A stretch of DNA of 64,000 nucleotides from Paludibacteraceae bacterium. GTDB lineage: Bacteria > Bacteroidota > Bacteroidia > Bacteroidales > Paludibacteraceae. Both the position numbers and the translations under genes were made by a program. Shown piece after piece: positions 56,642 through 64,000 of the stretch. Position 1 is the stretch's first letter; each line of letters starts with the position of its first letter. A model generated the notes under the pieces. The model searched no databases. It saw nothing but the letters and a program-made list of their open reading frames with translations, and had not been told where the DNA came from. The stretch is taken from assembly GCA_024405875.1 (NCBI GenBank), contig JAKSOA010000006.1:1-64000 (forward strand), read 5' to 3'.

Positions 56642-57010
56642 ATGAAACCGAATACGTTGACATTTTTGGAGGCAAATCAAAGCCAAACATCTTCCAAATG
56701 GATGGATGAGGTTGATAGGAAATGTGAAAACAGGATATGGGTACGTCATTCTCAAAAGATAGCGGTCAGAGTGTTTTTGAAGATGAGGCAGACTGGGTTA
56801 ACTCAGAATGCCTTGGCAGAGAGAATGGGCTGCACTCAGCAATACATATCAAAAATTCTGAAGGGGAAAGAGAATATGTCCCTTGAAATATTATCCAAAT
56901 TGGAATATGCTTTAAATATCAACTTGATAAATGACGAACAGGTGTGTTGCAGTGCGAGTGTAGCAGCGGAGGAGCCGCCTGAATATAAGATAGAAAAAGA
57001 TTATCGTTAA
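56642..57010 (+). CDS. XRE-family helix-turn-helix regulator
   Basis: 122 aa. A 40-residue N-terminal extension is followed by an HTH-XRE domain (about residues 42-100: LTQNALAERMGCTQQYISKI, LKGKENMSLEILSKLEYAL). It sits directly upstream of a DNA methyltransferase gene in the same direction, the position of controller proteins in restriction-modification loci. That role is inferred. No toxin partner is seen. Confidence 0.85.
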   Translation: MKPNTLTFLEANQSQTSSKWMDEVDRKCENRIWVRHSQKIAVRVFLKMRQTGLTQNALAERMGCTQQYISKILKGKENMSLEILSKLEYALNINLINDEQVCCSASVAAEEPPEYKIEKDYR

Positions 57011-57141
57011 TGTTGGCACTTTGTGAAATTTTTGTGGAATTTTGCGTAGGTTTATTGTTTTAATGTGAAATTATTTGTACTTTTATACCTTGTAATTATC
57101 TTGCCTGTGATGTGTGCTGAGGCAAAAGTTTTGTTGTAAGA

Positions 57142-58392
57142 ATGACTAAACGTAATTATACATTTATTGATTTGTTCGCTGGTTGCGGTGGGCTGAGTGA
57201 GGGATTTGTCCAAGCTGGATTTCTGCCTATTGCTCACGTGGAGATGAACAACGAGGCGTGTGAAACCCTGAGAACACGTAGTTGCTATCACTATTGTTGT
57301 AGCCACAATAAAGAAAAATTTTATTTCGACTATCTAAAGGGCTCTATTTCTCGTGATGATTTGTTCAAGAATGTTCCGTCTCGTATTACAAAATCAGTAA
57401 TCAATGCCGAAATATCAGATTCTTCTGTTGATGAGATTTTTAGGCAAATTCATACGCTTGCGGGCAAAAAAAGTATTGATTTAATAATTGGGGGACCTCC
57501 GTGCCAGGCGTATTCACTTTTAGGAAGACACAATAAGAAAATGGAGGATGACCCGCGTACTTTGCTGTATTTGCAGTATGGAAAGTTTCTGAAAGAATTT
57601 AACCCTGCAGGATTTGTTTTTGAAAATGTGCCAGGGCTTCTTAGTGCTAAGAAAGGTGAACATTTTAAAAATCTTCAGATATATTTCAAAAGTTTGGGGT
57701 ATGAGGTACATTATAAAATGCTGACTGCTTCTGACTATGGCGTGCTGCAAGAGCGTCATAGGCTTATTATTGTTGGATGGAAGTCTGATTGTGATTTGGG
57801 ATATCCTAATTTTAAAACACAGACAACCAAAGCAGTGGTAAATGATATTTTGTCAGATTTACCTAAATTAAAAGCTGGCGAATCAAGAGAGATTGCTGAA
57901 TACGAGTCGCCCATTAATCAATATTTGGTGGAGAGTGGAATCAGGTCAGAAAAAGAAAGTTTTGTCACTCAGAATATAACCAGACCAGTCAATGCTAATG
58001 ATGCTCAAATATATGAGTTCGCCATCAAGTTGTGGAACAAAAACAGGTCACGTCTTAAATACACTGATTTACCAGTGGAATTGCGTTCGCAAAAGAATGA
58101 AAGTTCTTTTCTTGATAGGTTTAAGGTTGTAAATGGAGAGGGTAAATCACATACTTTAGTGGCTCATATGTCAAAAGATGGACATTATTACATTCATCCA
58201 GATATTAAATATTGTCGTTCTATTTCCGTGAGAGAGGCCGCAAGGCTTCAATCATTCCCAGATAATTTTTATTTTGAAGGAAGTCGTTCATCTATTTTCA
58301 AACAGATAGGGAACGCAGTGCCACCACTGATGGCTAAATCTATTGCGGAATCAATAAATGAGATGATATGCCTACAGAAAGATGTCAAATAA
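57142..58392 (+). CDS. C5-cytosine DNA methyltransferase 1
   Basis: 416 aa with the ordered m5C methyltransferase motifs: I (DLFAGCGGLSEGF), IV (GGPPCQAYS, catalytic Cys121), VI (FENVPGLL, Glu161), VIII (QERHRLIIVGW), then the variable target-recognition region, IX (RSISVREAARLQSFP) and X (IGNAVPPLMAKSIA). It is therefore expected to be active, transferring methyl groups from SAM to cytosine C5. The recognition site is unknown. It is followed 50 bases later by a GHKL kinase gene rather than a nuclease. Confidence 0.94.
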   Translation: MTKRNYTFIDLFAGCGGLSEGFVQAGFLPIAHVEMNNEACETLRTRSCYHYCCSHNKEKFYFDYLKGSISRDDLFKNVPSRITKSVINAEISDSSVDEIFRQIHTLAGKKSIDLIIGGPPCQAYSLLGRHNKKMEDDPRTLLYLQYGKFLKEFNPAGFVFENVPGLLSAKKGEHFKNLQIYFKSLGYEVHYKMLTASDYGVLQERHRLIIVGWKSDCDLGYPNFKTQTTKAVVNDILSDLPKLKAGESREIAEYESPINQYLVESGIRSEKESFVTQNITRPVNANDAQIYEFAIKLWNKNRSRLKYTDLPVELRSQKNESSFLDRFKVVNGEGKSHTLVAHMSKDGHYYIHPDIKYCRSISVREAARLQSFPDNFYFEGSRSSIFKQIGNAVPPLMAKSIAESINEMICLQKDVK

Positions 58393-58442
58393 AAGCCACT
58401 AGCAGGACGTAGTTTCACTGAAAATTTATTAAAATAATAATT

Positions 58443-60596
58443 ATGAATGAAAACATATTAAGTTGTGGAAGTTTTAATTTTAAACCACGTGCACGTTTGA
58501 TAAAAACTATTGGAGAAGAACTTATTAGTAATGATAATGTCGCAATTACTGAATTGGTGAAAAATAGTTACGATGCAGGTTCTCCTATAGTCGATATTAC
58601 ATTTATAGGGAAAGTTAAAGAAAGAGATAGTGTTGTTAAGAAGACAAGAGTTTCGGATGTAACCAAAGAAAAATACATTGTTTCTGAAGGAGCTTCTATA
58701 GTTGTTTTAGATGAAGGCAGTGGCATGGATTTTGAAATTATACAAAAAGCATGGATGGAGCCTGCTACCAACTATAAAAAAAAGGCAGAAAATAAAAAAA
58801 ATGCAATAAGAAAATTTACAGGAGAAAAGGGCATTGGTCGTTTTGCTGCAGCCAAGTTATCCAAACGACTTGAATTGATTACAAAACAAAAAGAGAAGGA
58901 TGAAATAGTTGTTGAATTTGACTGGAATGATTTTTCAAATGAAGAGAGCTATTTGGAAGATGTGAAAATTGATTGGACTATCAGAAAACCTCAGGAAATA
59001 AAAGACAGCGGTACGATACTTAAATTAGTGGAATTAAATGACGATTGGAATGAATCAAAAATATCTGATTTGCGTGTTGCTTTATCTAGGTTGTTAAATC
59101 CGATTGTTCCTGAAGAGGATTTTCTTATTAGCATAAACCTTCCTGCTGATTTTGAAAAATCTTTGTCTGGGTTAATAGAAAGACCGGATATGCTGAATCG
59201 TCCTAATTATGTAATTAAAGGTAAGGTTTCAAATGAAGGTCGACCTCAAGATGTTGTATTCTATAGCAAGATTAAAAATCAGGAGGAGAAACTTGCATTA
59301 TCAGAAAACTTGTTTGTTGCTAATAATAAGCCTTATTGTGTTGGACCGTTTTCATTTGAGTTTAAAATTTGGGACAGAGACAAAGACAATCTTAATGCAC
59401 TGTCATTGGAAATGGCATCAAAAAGCAATTCCACTGTCAGAAATATTAAAAGAGATTTGGATGATTTATGTGGTATAAGTATATATAGAGATAATGTTCG
59501 TGTTCTTCCATATGGCAATCAAAACAATGATTGGGTTCGATTAGATATACGTCGTGTTAATAATCCTACTTTGAGATTGAGTAACAATCAAATAGTTGGA
59601 TTTGTCTCTATTGGCCTTGATTCTAATCCATTATTGAATGATCAAAGTAATCGTGAAGGCATTGTTGAAAGTCAGGCTTTTGAAGGTCTTAAAGATTGCA
59701 TTAAAATAATATTGAATGAGGTTGAACAACGTAGATATAATGAACGTCCTCGTGAAAAAGATAATAGTAGCTTGTCCTCAAAAAGTCTATTTGATAAATT
59801 TTCTTTAAGTTCACTGACAGAAGCAATCAAAGAAAAATTGCCAGAACAAAAAGAGGTGATTAGTCTTATAACTCAGAAAGATCTTGAAATTCAGGAGGCC
59901 ATATCGAAAGTTCAAGAAATAATTTCAAGATATAGAAGATTGTCGACCTTAGGGCAGCTGATTGATGCAATTCTTCATGATGGCAATGGACTTCTCAACT
60001 TGATTGATTTGAATTCTCGTTTGTTGCTTAAGGAAATTGATAACGAGTATGTAAATAAAAGTGAAGTGAAGGATTTGGTACACTCACTTCAAACAACACG
60101 TTTAGAATTTGCACAATTGTTTAAAAGAATGTCGCCATTTGGTGGGAGAAAAAGAGAATCACCTAAAAAACTGATATTGGAATCTGTAATAAACAATCAA
60201 TTTTATTTGTTCAAGGATGAATTATCTCGATTGAGTATCGATTATGTTGTCCCCAATTCCAAACATGAAATCATTATAGATGAAGCAGATATAGGAATTA
60301 TTTTTATGAATTTGATTCAAAATTCGATATATTGGTTAGGGACGATTTATGGGAAACGCAGAATATATGTTCAGATATATGACGAAGAAGGATTATGTAT
60401 TCTTTTCAGTGATAATGGACCTGGTATTAGAAAGGAAATAGAGCAAAACGTGTTTGATCCGTATTTCAGTACTAAACCTGATGGAATTGGACTAGGATTG
60501 ACAATTGTAGGAGAACTGATTTCTGAATATAACGGAGAGTTTATGTTGGTAAACAATGAAATTTCAACAGGGGCATGTTTTAAAATTAAATTTTAA
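58443..60596 (+). CDS. Soluble histidine kinase with N-terminal Hsp90/MORC-type GHKL ATPase and C-terminal kinase domain
   Basis: 717 aa with no membrane segment. The N-terminal GHKL ATPase has N box ELVKNSYDAG (Asn41, Asp44), G1 VLDEGSGMD (Asp90) and G2 FTGEKGIGRFAAAK (127-132), as in HATPase_c_3/MORC-like proteins. A coiled coil follows. A DHp-like helix pair has candidate phospho-His512 in AILHDGNGLLN. The second GHKL domain is a classical kinase one: N box NLIQNSIYW (Asn627), G1 FSDNGPGI (Asp657), G2 GIGLGLTIV (681 on). So it has two complete ATP sites. It lies 8 bases before a receiver-domain gene and between two DNA methyltransferase genes. I infer a cytosolic sensor in a modification or defence operon. 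Confidence 0.87.
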   Translation: MNENILSCGSFNFKPRARLIKTIGEELISNDNVAITELVKNSYDAGSPIVDITFIGKVKERDSVVKKTRVSDVTKEKYIVSEGASIVVLDEGSGMDFEIIQKAWMEPATNYKKKAENKKNAIRKFTGEKGIGRFAAAKLSKRLELITKQKEKDEIVVEFDWNDFSNEESYLEDVKIDWTIRKPQEIKDSGTILKLVELNDDWNESKISDLRVALSRLLNPIVPEEDFLISINLPADFEKSLSGLIERPDMLNRPNYVIKGKVSNEGRPQDVVFYSKIKNQEEKLALSENLFVANNKPYCVGPFSFEFKIWDRDKDNLNALSLEMASKSNSTVRNIKRDLDDLCGISIYRDNVRVLPYGNQNNDWVRLDIRRVNNPTLRLSNNQIVGFVSIGLDSNPLLNDQSNREGIVESQAFEGLKDCIKIILNEVEQRRYNERPREKDNSSLSSKSLFDKFSLSSLTEAIKEKLPEQKEVISLITQKDLEIQEAISKVQEIISRYRRLSTLGQLIDAILHDGNGLLNLIDLNSRLLLKEIDNEYVNKSEVKDLVHSLQTTRLEFAQLFKRMSPFGGRKRESPKKLILESVINNQFYLFKDELSRLSIDYVVPNSKHEIIIDEADIGIIFMNLIQNSIYWLGTIYGKRRIYVQIYDEEGLCILFSDNGPGIRKEIEQNVFDPYFSTKPDGIGLGLTIVGELISEYNGEFMLVNNEISTGACFKIKF

Positions 60597-60604
60597 TGTA
60601 GAAT

Positions 60605-61702
60605 ATGATGAATAAATTGAAGATATTATATATAGAGGACGACTCAGAGGTTCGTGAAAAACTTGTTAAACTATTGCAAGATGAAGTCATATGTGGTTGT
60701 AAAATTGATATAAAAGGGAGTGGTGATTTTAATACTTCGATGAAGAGTATTTCGAATTATCAAATGCTTATATTAGACATATATGAAGGTAACCCTAAAG
60801 ATTATGGGTCTCCATCGGGGAAAAATGTGCTTGCTGAGATACAAAAGTATTTTTTTATTCCTGTTATTTTCTATTCAGGAAACACATCAAGTGTAACCCA
60901 ATATAAATCTCAAATTGTAGGTGTTGCTACTAAAGGTAACGGGGGAGTTGAAGAATTAAAGTCAGAAATCGAACGTATTACTAAGCATAATTTGCCTTTT
61001 CTTAAGGAAATTGTTCATTCATATATAGAAAAAGAGTTTAAAAAATATTTTTGGGATGTAATCCAAAAAGAGAACAGTAAGTTTACTCCTGATGCTGATG
61101 ACTTCTCTCTAGGATATATGCTATTACGAAACTTTGCAGATTCACTTTCAAAAGAAAATATAAAAAAATTAATAGGGGATGATACTATTCAAAATGAGAA
61201 GGTTCATCCAATGGAATTTTATATATATCCAATTGATTCATCTAAAGAGTATGAAAATGGAGAAATCCTTAAAAATAAAGAAAATGATGATATTTATGTA
61301 ATTCTCACACCTTCTTGTGATTTTGTTGAGCGCTTTAAAAAAGGAGTAAGTGTTGGACGAAATGTTGATAAGGTGTTTATGGTAAACACCAAACTTTTAA
61401 CAGAATGTAATGAGTATAAAAGTTATATAGAACATTCAGGAAAAAACGAAATACAAGAATTGACGAAACTTATAAATTCTGGGAAAAGTGATAGATATTT
61501 TTTCCTTCCTCATGCACCATTTATTGAAAATAGAGTTATTGACTTTCAACTTAATATAAGTGTCGCTTATGATGAATTAAAATCAAAATTTGATAGAATC
61601 GCAAAATTAGATTCTCCATTCGCACAATCAATGACAGCAAGTTTTGTTCGTTATTATAATAGAATAGGTTTTCCTGATATTGATAATAGGCAAAAAAACT
61701 AA
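60605..61702 (+). CDS. Receiver-domain (response-regulator) protein with unknown C-terminal domain
   Basis: 365 aa. The N-terminal receiver domain (about residues 5-125) keeps the acidic pocket (ILYIEDDSE, Glu11-Asp13), the phospho-acceptor (LILDIYEG, Asp58), the Ser switch (FYSGN, Ser91) and the Lys (VATKGN, Lys110). The C-terminal 230 residues are not a known DNA-binding output domain. They contain VILTPSCDFVERFKKG, YFFLPHAPFIENRVIDFQ and DSPFAQSMTASFVRYYNRIG, a pattern I associate with uncharacterised proteins of defence islands (memory only). It is the evident partner of the upstream kinase. Output unknown. Confidence 0.83.
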   Translation: MMNKLKILYIEDDSEVREKLVKLLQDEVICGCKIDIKGSGDFNTSMKSISNYQMLILDIYEGNPKDYGSPSGKNVLAEIQKYFFIPVIFYSGNTSSVTQYKSQIVGVATKGNGGVEELKSEIERITKHNLPFLKEIVHSYIEKEFKKYFWDVIQKENSKFTPDADDFSLGYMLLRNFADSLSKENIKKLIGDDTIQNEKVHPMEFYIYPIDSSKEYENGEILKNKENDDIYVILTPSCDFVERFKKGVSVGRNVDKVFMVNTKLLTECNEYKSYIEHSGKNEIQELTKLINSGKSDRYFFLPHAPFIENRVIDFQLNISVAYDELKSKFDRIAKLDSPFAQSMTASFVRYYNRIGFPDIDNRQKN

Positions 61703-61784
61703 ACCAAATGTGTGATTTATTTTGTGTTTGAATGTGTTGAATATTCAGGAAATGAGATTTTATATACAGGATTTGATATGAAAT

Positions 61785-63083
61785 ATGGCAACGGTTGATA
61801 AAGAAATAAAAGAGCAATCAAAAAAAATAGAAAAAGTAAAAAAGATTGTCAAGAGACGTGCTGAAAATCTTGATTCTAAAGATTTAAAACAGACAGATAT
61901 TTCGGATGGACCTTTATGGAGGGATTTGGATTTTAGCCATCCTGAACGTTGTGTTAGAATAGGAACGTTGTTTAGCGGTATTGGTGCAATTGAGCATGCG
62001 TTTCAAAGATTAAAGCTTAATCATAAAATTGTATTTGCTGGCGACATTGAACCGAAATGCAAACAAAGTTACTTTGCTAATTATGAGATTGACGGGGAAA
62101 ATTGGTTTACAGACATTAGAAATTTTGATGCAAAAAAATATGCTGGCAAAGTAGATTTTGTTGTAGGAGGTGCACCCTGTCAAGCATTTTCTATGGTCGG
62201 TCATCGTTTGGGATTTGAAGATGCAAGAGGAACGTTATTTTATGAATTTGCTAGAGTTGTAAAAGAAACTAAGCCCAAAGTATTCTTGTTTGAAAATGTC
62301 AGAGGGTTGCTTAATCATGATAAACATAGGACATGGCATGTAATGCATGATATTTTTGAAGAATTAGGATACGACGTTAAATTCAGGGTCCTCAATAGTT
62401 GTGATTATGGTATTCCTCAACACAGAGAAAGAGTTTATTGCTTGGGATTTAAGAAAGCAACAGATTTTAAATATCCAGCACCAATTCCCTTAGAATATAA
62501 AATGTATGATTTTCTTGAGGACTATATTGATTCAAAATATTTTTTAAAAGAAAAAGGCATTAAGTTTGTCACGAGTCACAAAAATCGTGAGAAATGTTAT
62601 ACTCAGATTAATGGAGAAATCGCTCTGTGTCAAAAAAGAAATCAAGAATTTAATTGGCACGGTGACTTTGTGTATCATCCTGATTCAGAAATAACGCTAT
62701 CGAATGATGAATTTGATGAATTTATATTTGATGTTAGAGATGTAGAGGAAAAATACTATTTGTCAGAAAAAGTTGCGAAGTATGTGTTAGCTGGTGGAAC
62801 TAAAAATTTTAAAACATCAACAGAAACAGATTTGGATATTGCACGTCCTCTATTGCAATCAATGCATAAAATGCACCGGGCTGGAGTTGATAATTATGTT
62901 ACTCACAAAGGACGTATTCGGAAATTAACACCTCGGGAGTGTCATCGGTTGATGGGTTTTAAAGATTCTTACAAAATTGTTGTAAGTGATACGGCAGCAT
63001 ATCAACAAGCAGGGAATAGTATTGTTGTGGATGTACTTATAGCATTGCTAAAGCAAATGGATATAACTCAATATGGAGAATAA
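61785..63083 (+). CDS. C5-cytosine DNA methyltransferase 2
   Basis: 432 aa. A Lys/Glu-rich N-terminal extension of about 55 residues precedes motif I (IGTLFSGIGAIEHAF), IV (VGGAPCQAFSMVG, catalytic Cys132), VI (LFENVRGLL, Glu170) and VIII (PQHRERVYCLGF). A variable region and motifs IX-X (LTPRECHRLMGF, YQQAGNSIVVDVL) follow. All catalytic motifs are intact. It differs clearly from methyltransferase 1, so the two probably recognise different sites or strands. An unidentified gene starts 3 bases after its stop, the position expected of a cognate nuclease. Confidence 0.94.
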   Translation: MATVDKEIKEQSKKIEKVKKIVKRRAENLDSKDLKQTDISDGPLWRDLDFSHPERCVRIGTLFSGIGAIEHAFQRLKLNHKIVFAGDIEPKCKQSYFANYEIDGENWFTDIRNFDAKKYAGKVDFVVGGAPCQAFSMVGHRLGFEDARGTLFYEFARVVKETKPKVFLFENVRGLLNHDKHRTWHVMHDIFEELGYDVKFRVLNSCDYGIPQHRERVYCLGFKKATDFKYPAPIPLEYKMYDFLEDYIDSKYFLKEKGIKFVTSHKNREKCYTQINGEIALCQKRNQEFNWHGDFVYHPDSEITLSNDEFDEFIFDVRDVEEKYYLSEKVAKYVLAGGTKNFKTSTETDLDIARPLLQSMHKMHRAGVDNYVTHKGRIRKLTPRECHRLMGFKDSYKIVVSDTAAYQQAGNSIVVDVLIALLKQMDITQYGE

Positions 63084-63086
63084 AAT

Positions 63087-64000
63087 ATGGAACAAGTAAT
63101 CACAAGAGAAATGTCATCGTTAGGTTTCACTGAAAAGGTAGGTGATATATTCATAGATTGGGAAACAGTTAAGGACGAATTGTTGGAACCGGACCGGAAA
63201 GCTGGAACAGGGAATGGTACAATTCATGTGTTTTTGGGGAAAGAGGGGTATCGTTTACTTAAAAACTTATATCCGGAATATCTCAATCAGGTTAATGTTA
63301 CTAATGATACAAATTCGAATGCACCTATAATCACGCATGTTTTCTCGAAAGCTAATTTAATAAGCTCCATAGGTCATGTGTGTAATTATTATATACAAAA
63401 AGGTGATACAGAGAAGCTTATAGATTTAGTCGCTAAGGTTGCAGCTAAATTAAACGAGACGTCAGATAAATTTTTTACTTCAAAATCTTTGTTTAAATGG
63501 TCCTTGGGAAGCAATGACTTACGGCCATATTTTAAACAATTTGATGATAAATTTCAAAAAACAATCAGACCGCTATTACTTCCCAACTCAGCCTACAAAA
63601 TCAGTTTGTTCAAGAACAAAAACGGTGAAGTTGCCGCATTTTGGTTAATAGGATTCGAAGGATTAACTACTTTTGAAGCAAATTCTACCATTTCGTATTT
63701 ACATAATGTTCAGGATCAATGTATTTGTCAAGCTAAAAAATTGGCATCTTTTATATTGATGTGTATTGAATATTTTAATGAACTTGATAACTTGAAATCA
63801 ATAGTTCCATATGCTGCGGTGGTTCCTGTTAATAATCCAATTAAGGTTTCAAAAGAGAGTGTTTTTTTGTTGACAGGAATGTTTATTGAAACAGATATAA
63901 ATGAAATAAAACGAAGAAACGAAAATCATCACAGATGGTTTGAAAAAGCTTTTTCTCTTGGCGAGAAAGAGGTTTATTTAAGCACACAATGGAATTCTGA
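63087..64000 (+). CDS. Unidentified protein, partial (3' end off window)
   Basis: Starts at ATG 63087, three bases after the methyltransferase 2 stop, and stays open for 304 codons to the window edge. It begins MEQVITREMSSLGFTEKVGD and contains GNGTIHVFLGKEGYRLLKNL and RPYFKQFDDKFQKTIRPLLL. There is no signal peptide, no P-loop, and no nuclease motif I can identify in the visible part. Position makes a restriction or effector subunit plausible; that is inference only. Confidence 0.7.
   Translation, partial: MEQVITREMSSLGFTEKVGDIFIDWETVKDELLEPDRKAGTGNGTIHVFLGKEGYRLLKNLYPEYLNQVNVTNDTNSNAPIITHVFSKANLISSIGHVCNYYIQKGDTEKLIDLVAKVAAKLNETSDKFFTSKSLFKWSLGSNDLRPYFKQFDDKFQKTIRPLLLPNSAYKISLFKNKNGEVAAFWLIGFEGLTTFEANSTISYLHNVQDQCICQAKKLASFILMCIEYFNELDNLKSIVPYAAVVPVNNPIKVSKESVFLLTGMFIETDINEIKRRNENHHRWFEKAFSLGEKEVYLSTQWNS

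Follow-up and report, generated by a model that had tools for sequence, protein, structure and literature searches.

What would a soluble two-component pair do between two genes for DNA-cytosine methyltransferases? The question is raised by a 64,000-base stretch of DNA from a Paludibacteraceae bacterium, hereafter the window (bases 1-64000 of the 95,070-base contig JAKSOA010000006.1; genome 1.85 Mb, 78.7% complete). Six genes at its end, all on the + strand, encode an XRE regulator, a methylase (M1), a histidine kinase (HK), a receiver-domain response regulator (RR), a second methylase (M2) and a sixth protein, with gaps of 131, 50, 8, 82 and 3 bases between them; the open reading frame (ORF) coordinates bear out the order, strand and gaps given in an earlier note on this DNA (the original prediction). 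By sequence comparison, such kinase-receiver pairs are a widespread, little-studied family that accompanies DNA-cytosine methylases. Our favoured explanation, to which we give not quite an even chance, is that a LlaJI-type restriction-modification (R-M) operon has taken up a portable M1-HK-RR module, a relay sensing the state of DNA and acting on the local system.

The kinase-receiver pair and its link to cytosine methylases

The genes of the pair and of the methylases around it lie as follows.

57142..58392, + strand: M1, 5-methylcytosine (m5C) methyltransferase of 416 amino acids (aa); DNA_methylase, best PADLOC model DrmMII PDLC02649 (550 bits)
58443..60596, + strand: HK, soluble histidine kinase of 717 aa; HATPase_c_3 at aa 32-186, His512 box, HATPase_c at aa 613-716
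59976..59978, + strand: codon of His512, predicted phospho-acceptor of HK, invariant in 85 of 85 aligned kinases
60605..61702, + strand: RR, 365 aa; receiver domain at aa ~1-130 and an output domain with LTPxCD, FLP and RxGxPD motifs
60776..60778, + strand: codon of Asp58, predicted phospho-acceptor of RR, invariant in 66 of 66 aligned receivers
61785..63083, + strand: M2, second m5C methyltransferase, 432 aa; DNA_methylase

The original prediction held that the parts look functional, and the catalytic residues expected of methyltransferases, kinase and receiver are indeed all present. Read directly, M1 carries the motifs FAGCGG, GGPPC, ENVPG, QERHR and GNAV, and M2 carries FSGIGA, GGAPC, ENVRG, QHRER and GNSI; the DNA_methylase scores of the two in Pfam are 226 and 274 bits. 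HK (HATPase_c_3 63 bits, HATPase_c 55 bits) opens with a MORC/MutL-type GHKL ATPase whose residues E37, N41, D44, D90, G92, G94, K129 and G130 are kept in 54 of 54 kinases, as are N623, N627, G659, G681, G683 and G685 of the C-terminal domain; alignment A8 holds 54 kinase rows, and the short L043 kinase was left out of alignment A5. The kinase profile matched solved histidine kinases with an expectation value (E) of 1.4e-24, and the receiver profile matched solved receivers at E 3.5e-11. The phosphotransfer residues in the window are His512 of HK and E11-D12, D58, S91 and K110 of RR; among the 66 aligned receivers Asp58 and Ser/Thr91 are each found in all 66, position 110 is Lys in 54 and Arg in 12, and position 12 is Asp in 65 and Glu in one. 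The kinase thus has the predicted His and ATP site and the receiver the acidic pocket, Asp, Ser/Thr and Lys of a two-component system. With these residues demonstrably kept, phosphotransfer between HK and RR is very likely.

A scan with the kinase alignment of one genome per species (84,980 species) yielded at least 570 confirmed relatives. The best 80 were kept, and these loci are the best-scoring ones, not a random sample; five of the six seed kinases had a methylase nearby, and several loci end near the kinase. The tree rows for these best-scoring loci fall under 20 phylum-level names, of which 19 are bacterial and one is archaeal. In 76 of the 80 loci the next gene downstream of the kinase encodes a receiver (65 of a short type and 11 of a longer type), the exceptions being L031, L043, L060 and L072. 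The distance correlation between HK and RR was 0.75 (70 loci) and stayed at 0.75 after thinning (45 loci), which supports a real partnership in which kinase and receiver have evolved together; the permutation P values for this and the other distance correlations below come from 199 shuffles, and shared ancestry contributes to all of these correlations.

The prediction had set as a test whether the pair normally occurs apart from methylases. The opposite was found, since a six-frame search placed a C5 methylase within 5 kb of the kinase in 64 of the 80 loci; among the 43 loci flanked by 5 kb or more of sequence on either side, 38 had one. Calls based on ORFs gave 60 of 80 and 36 of 43 and missed three high-GC Vsr genes; with these calls, as an internal control, methylase density was 58 per 406 flank-kb at 0-3 kb from the kinase versus 1 per 384 at 5-9 kb, the 9-10 kb bin (2 methylases, 6 flanks) being left out as an edge effect. 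These counts demonstrate the linkage to methylases, and a coupling of the pair to cytosine modification is likely. Methylases at least 45% identical to M1 were found at 25 of 85 kinase loci, one as a 154-aa partial match. Varied R-M genes also adjoin the kinases, the HsdM/HsdR-like neighbours having been recognised by eye only. In the reverse direction, 80 genomes of the window's class yielded 29 C5-methylase loci when the best locus of each genome was taken; a member of the kinase superfamily was present in 3 of them, two of these being linked to the Pfam family PF19192 treated below.

A mobile segment of 5.7-6.0 kb, 88-95% identical among three actinobacterial families (L032 and two others), holds most of Vsr together with a methylase, HK and RR, and no restriction nuclease; a Vsr-methylase-HK-RR segment is therefore demonstrably common to distant bacteria. 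Kinases were also seen on 22 predicted viral contigs of IMG/VR (L205-L226), and on 8 of these a receiver and a methylase were also matched within the same stretch; when RR and HK were each used alone to scan viral contigs, no match was confirmed, and RR gave none in phages. In Campylobacter (41 records) the receiver is carried on conjugative plasmids, and on the Campylobacter coli plasmid pCC20JX12-60K (L014) HK-RR adjoins a C5 methylase 48% identical to M1.

The LlaJI-type backbone and its surroundings

The remaining genes of the operon, followed beyond the window, are these.

56642..57010, + strand: XRE/Cro-type helix-turn-helix (HTH) regulator of 122 aa; HTH_3 43 bits, PADLOC PDC-M64C 51 bits and Control_protein 32 bits
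63087..65138, + strand, of which the window holds 63087..64000: R1, McrB/R1.LlaJI-like, 683 aa; matches to McrB structures and R1.LlaJI
65187-67505, beyond the window: R2, McrC/R2.LlaJI-like nuclease of 772 aa, assigned by gene order and motif
67510-67965, beyond the window: Vsr; PF03852, 107 bits

Extending the contig past base 64000 in search of a nuclease, as had been proposed, identified the sixth gene as the McrB-like R1, followed by the McrC/R2-like nuclease R2 and by Vsr. R1 carries the motifs GAPGTGKS, IIEEINR and MNTSDQS, matched solved McrB chains (E 1.6e-10, 6ut3) and is 34% identical over 290 aa (E 4e-37) to R1.LlaJI of the Lactococcus plasmid pNP40. R2 matched (E 2e-75) the R2 encoded in a methylase-methylase-R1-R2 operon of the Pedobacter plasmid pA27BH1, and a multiple alignment placed its D-x-K motif over the one in R2.LlaJI; it had no Pfam match at gathering strength, and among solved structures the best E was 0.21, none being credible. 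In the available text of PMC1459862, LlaJI consists of two 5mC methylases, a McrB-like R1 and an R2 with PD..D/ExK. Because of this composition, the R1 and R2 matches and the aligned motif, we read the backbone as LlaJI-type, and on these comparisons the operon is established and its restriction subunits are LlaJI-type, R2 probably so.

As in LlaJI of pNP40, m5C methylases, a McrB-like R1 and an R2 with a putative D/ExK motif stand in one orientation; the pNP40 system differs in that no HK, RR or Vsr was found by profile, and no HTH gene is annotated, in the 10.8 kb around it. Around the Pedobacter operon, too, profiles found neither HK nor RR in the 17.5 kb fetched. McrBC, of type IV, resembles the window operon in that R1 is homologous to McrB and R2, judged by gene order and motif, is McrC/R2.LlaJI-like, whereas McrBC cleaves modified DNA and lacks a methylase; the window operon has methylases, as LlaJI does in the available text of PMC1459862. 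We infer that M2 is the methylase of the LlaJI-type unit. In a LlaJI-type system two methylases jointly protect one asymmetric site; the operon has two as well, but M1 may not belong to the LlaJI methylase pair, since it groups with kinase-linked methylases (matching them at up to 70%, versus 29% over 162 aa for the LlaJI methylases) and L021 has three methylases. The XRE protein is probably the controller of the operon.

The place of the pair varies: M2-R1-R2 follow it in the window, in L021 it is followed by two methylases and R1-R2, and in L016 it comes immediately after R2. Because of these differing positions, a reading of the whole set as a single fixed system was rejected.

From the rhomboid gene to HU-ArgS there are 95-100 bases in three of five same-genus relatives (G395, G396 and G404), versus 15.4 kb in the window genome, where the operon shares the stretch with genes for an esterase, a Schlafen-AlbA-HATPase protein and a Sir2 protein; at this site G397 and G406, the remaining two relatives, have another arrangement. 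No operon gene was found next to HU in the 7-18 kb fetched from the five relatives, and in G396 a methylase was matched weakly some 10 kb from HU. The G+C content is 0.35 in the operon, 0.42 upstream and 0.45 downstream. Among 150 genomes of the family the receiver was present in two, its own and one with a partial 28% match.

Within the same 15 kb stretch, behind Vsr, are the Schlafen-AlbA protein with HATPase_c_4 and a winged helix (68353-69738, L005) and the Sir2-family protein (69723-70460, L005). In the available text of PMC12839542, fusions of a Schlafen RNase with a minimal histidine kinase and a winged HTH domain are among the auxiliaries of BREX loci. Farther along the contig, at 88235-93934 on the - strand (L006:8235-13934), a RADAR-like pair suggests further defence genes at the contig end; its adenosine deaminase matched PDB 8fnw (E 7e-31) and its ATPase 8fnu (E 3.5e-13). 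We take the corresponding gene names to be RdrB for the deaminase and RdrA for the ATPase. The window genome has a third C5 methylase (contig C23:68861-70060, L003), and no profile match to HK, RR or Vsr was found within the 1.5 kb fetched on each side of it.

Relation to HEF_HK/Response_reg_2 and other known systems

The available text of Bellieny-Rabelo et al. 2021 (PMC8011034) describes HEF_HK (PF19191) and Response_reg_2 (PF19192) as a soluble kinase and its receiver, associated with C5 methylases, Vsr and elements of type II R-M, and proposes their descent from paraMORCs. The window pair has the same plan, with a kinase of HATPase_c_3, His box and HATPase_c, a receiver with an uncharacterised C-terminal domain, and a C5 methylase neighbour. 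However, the window genome gave no match to PF19191 or PF19192 up to E 10, and membership of these two families was rejected. In the wider family, for which 54 kinase rows were compared and 6 of these are PF19192-linked, PF19191 matches 9 kinases at E 0.01, and PF19192 matches 1 of the 66 receivers of the window's branch and none of the 11 longer ones. PF19192 scored above its cut-off in 7 of 395 genomes of the class. A methylase adjoins the kinase at all seven of these loci, and the seven kinases score 309-354 bits with the model of the window-family kinase; one receiver is broken by an in-frame stop (L148) and one runs off the contig end (L147), both being left out of alignment A6. A profile search with A3 in the 395 class genomes returned mostly ordinary receivers, four being full length or nearly so among the matches listed.

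Profile comparison related short and long receivers at 98.4%. The output domains of the short receivers align with those of PF19192 proteins (hhalign 83%, E 9e-6, 133 columns) and share, by eye, the CD, FLP and RxG motifs, whereas the receiver halves did not align in this comparison. In the kinase tree, obtained by a short search with Shimodaira-Hasegawa-like approximate likelihood ratio (SH-aLRT) support only, the PF19192-linked kinases form one separate long clade, and the window kinase stands with L021, L016 and L022. These comparisons establish the window pair as homologous to HEF_HK/Response_reg_2; given the failed Pfam models, the homology and the tree, we regard it as a relative on a separate branch and not as a member of either model.

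The composition had been put forward as new. As a kind it is not, since a sister pair was published in 2021 (PMC8011034, available text) and the restriction subunits belong to a known type, that of LlaJI/McrBC. A match to a described system thus holds in kind but fails at the level of the window proteins, which neither Pfam model recognises. What is new here is the sister branch and its breadth, the phosphotransfer residues in 66 of 66 receivers, the nuclease-free mobile Vsr-methylase-HK-RR segment and the EcoRII-N fusions described below; in the open-licence literature no paper was found that joins such a pair to a LlaJI-type system or reports EcoRII-N kinases.

Other systems are more remote. 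In the available text of Iyer et al. 2008 (PMC2292703) on paraMORC-containing R-M operons, the paraMORCs lack a second HATPase, a His box and a receiver partner. Receiver domains of CoCoNuT systems, in a different arrangement, are mentioned in the available text of a McrBC census (PMC11090510). M1 scores best with the DISARM model DrmMII, but neither DrmA nor DrmB was found in the window operon, and DISARM membership was rejected. At two of the loci without a receiver match the kinase gene directly precedes DISARM DrmA/DrmB (L060:3090-10957 and L072:1343-9254), which in L060 form one frame of 1876 aa. Detocs is a three-protein relay with a nucleotide-degrading effector. It resembles the window system in a defence logic that uses phosphotransfer and differs in that no nucleotide-degrading domain was recognised in the operon by Pfam or PADLOC 2023, a release that perhaps lacks Detocs. 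The PADLOC comparison suggested in the original prediction thus returned neither a DISARM (DrmA/DrmB) set nor a Detocs-type effector domain.

What the pair may sense and act on

Two kinase relatives carry at their N-terminus EcoRII-N, the site-binding domain of a CCWGG enzyme. They come from Opitutales (L078:647-3250; E 2.8e-13, 50 bits) and Chitinophagaceae (L095:1692-4274; E 2.8e-16, 60 bits), the cut-off being 25 bits, and both are uninterrupted frames from ATG; a third kinase (L058) has a weak match at E 0.005. L078 and L095 are widely separated in the kinase tree, so that the fusions look independent, although L095 is on a long branch and its position is unsure. The fusions are the strongest hint that DNA is what such kinases sense, and they make the predicted DNA-sensing kinase plausible. 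In HK itself, aa 82-232 resemble the BbrUII/HgiDII restriction-enzyme family (NF050001), though at 55 bits, far short of the cut-off of 550, and the N-terminal ATPase matches the PADLOC REase_II model at E 7e-5.

Under the favoured explanation the pair may sense the state of DNA. HK would be a cytosolic sensor whose MutL/MORC-like N-terminal ATPase clamps DNA or a DNA-bound restriction or repair protein, and on fully modified DNA it would remain silent or act as a phosphatase. Unmodified or damaged target sites, as in entering phage DNA or when the methylase lags, would lead HK to phosphorylate itself on His512 and to pass the phosphate to Asp58 of RR. Phosphorylated RR would then act on the local system by protein contact through its conserved output domain, either releasing restriction or adjusting methylase activity.

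Several observations weigh against this explanation. No C5 methylase was found in 5 of the 43 well-flanked loci, and the HK-methylase distance correlation is weak at 0.31 (63 loci) and 0.26 after thinning (42 loci). Asp657 of the G1 box is replaced by Asn in 7 of 54 kinases, no DNA-binding domain was recognised in the window HK, and EcoRII-N gave two strong matches and one weak one in the 59 kinases scanned. R2 had no pairwise BLAST match to R2.LlaJI at E 0.01. The LlaJI and Pedobacter operons exist without HK and RR, so the pair is not needed for restriction, and because the actinobacterial segment holds no restriction nuclease, gating a nuclease cannot be the sole role. Finally, Vsr stands beside the C5 methylase in 24 of 66 cases with HK and in 6 of 26 without it (P 0.32, not significant), a control that weakens the idea of a special tie between Vsr and the pair.

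It is possible, if rather unlikely, that HK-RR and the XRE protein control transcription of the R-M genes, for example by delaying the nuclease in a new host, and do not act directly on the DNA state or the enzymes. R-M systems are well known to need delayed nuclease expression, and the pair lies inside the operon with 8 bases between HK and RR. However, the operon already has an XRE controller, the actinobacterial segment has no restriction nuclease to delay, and no DNA-binding family of Pfam was found in the window RR or its 66 relatives at E 0.01, the fold of the output domain being uncharacterised. The window RR has no Pfam match at gathering strength, and the output domains of the 66 receivers matched no Pfam family at E 0.01, the matches obtained being receiver models and one stray.

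Unlikely too, and ranked below transcriptional control, is that methylase, HK and RR (with or without Vsr) form a self-contained epigenetic or defence system in which the output domain of RR is the effector and the LlaJI-type setting is co-localisation. Vsr-methylase-HK-RR alone is common to L032 and the two other actinobacteria, the LlaJI and Pedobacter operons lack the pair, and Cys238 of the output domain, present in 66 of 66 receivers, could be catalytic. Weak PADLOC matches of 11 of the 66 receivers to the candidate defence family PDC-M60B (best E 1e-5) point the same way, whereas the window RR matched nothing at E 0.001 and PDC-M60B only at E 0.024; similarly weak matches were to PDC-M60C in 5 receivers and SduA in 3. 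Yet no known catalytic family was recognised in the output domain, and only some neighbours of the 80 loci were scanned, so that nucleases were possibly missed. Moreover, a functional join is suggested by where the pair lies, with a methylase on one side and R1-R2 on the other both in L021 and in the window, and straight after R2 in L016.

Very unlikely is a coupling of modification to mismatch repair, in which the MutL-like ATPase would recruit or regulate Vsr or a T:G glycosylase at sites of m5C deamination and restriction would be incidental: Vsr (39 loci) or an HhH-GPD protein (8 loci) lies within 5 kb in 47 of the 80 loci and never both (P 0.003 for the absence of overlap, in a test chosen after seeing the data), and MutL and Vsr are discussed together in the available text of PMC2292703, but the Vsr link is not significantly stronger than at the HK-free methylases and the HK-Vsr distance correlation is weak (0.27 for 27 loci, 0.18 for 21 after thinning).

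If, as we tentatively favour, a portable M1-HK-RR module acts on the local system by protein contact of phosphorylated RR, one kind of relay could serve many nucleases. Histidine kinases sense small molecules, light and envelope stress. A kinase reading DNA modification would, if the explanation is true, be a new input class for histidine kinases, and one layer of regulation common to several restriction systems would help to explain how dangerous nucleases are restrained when modification lags.

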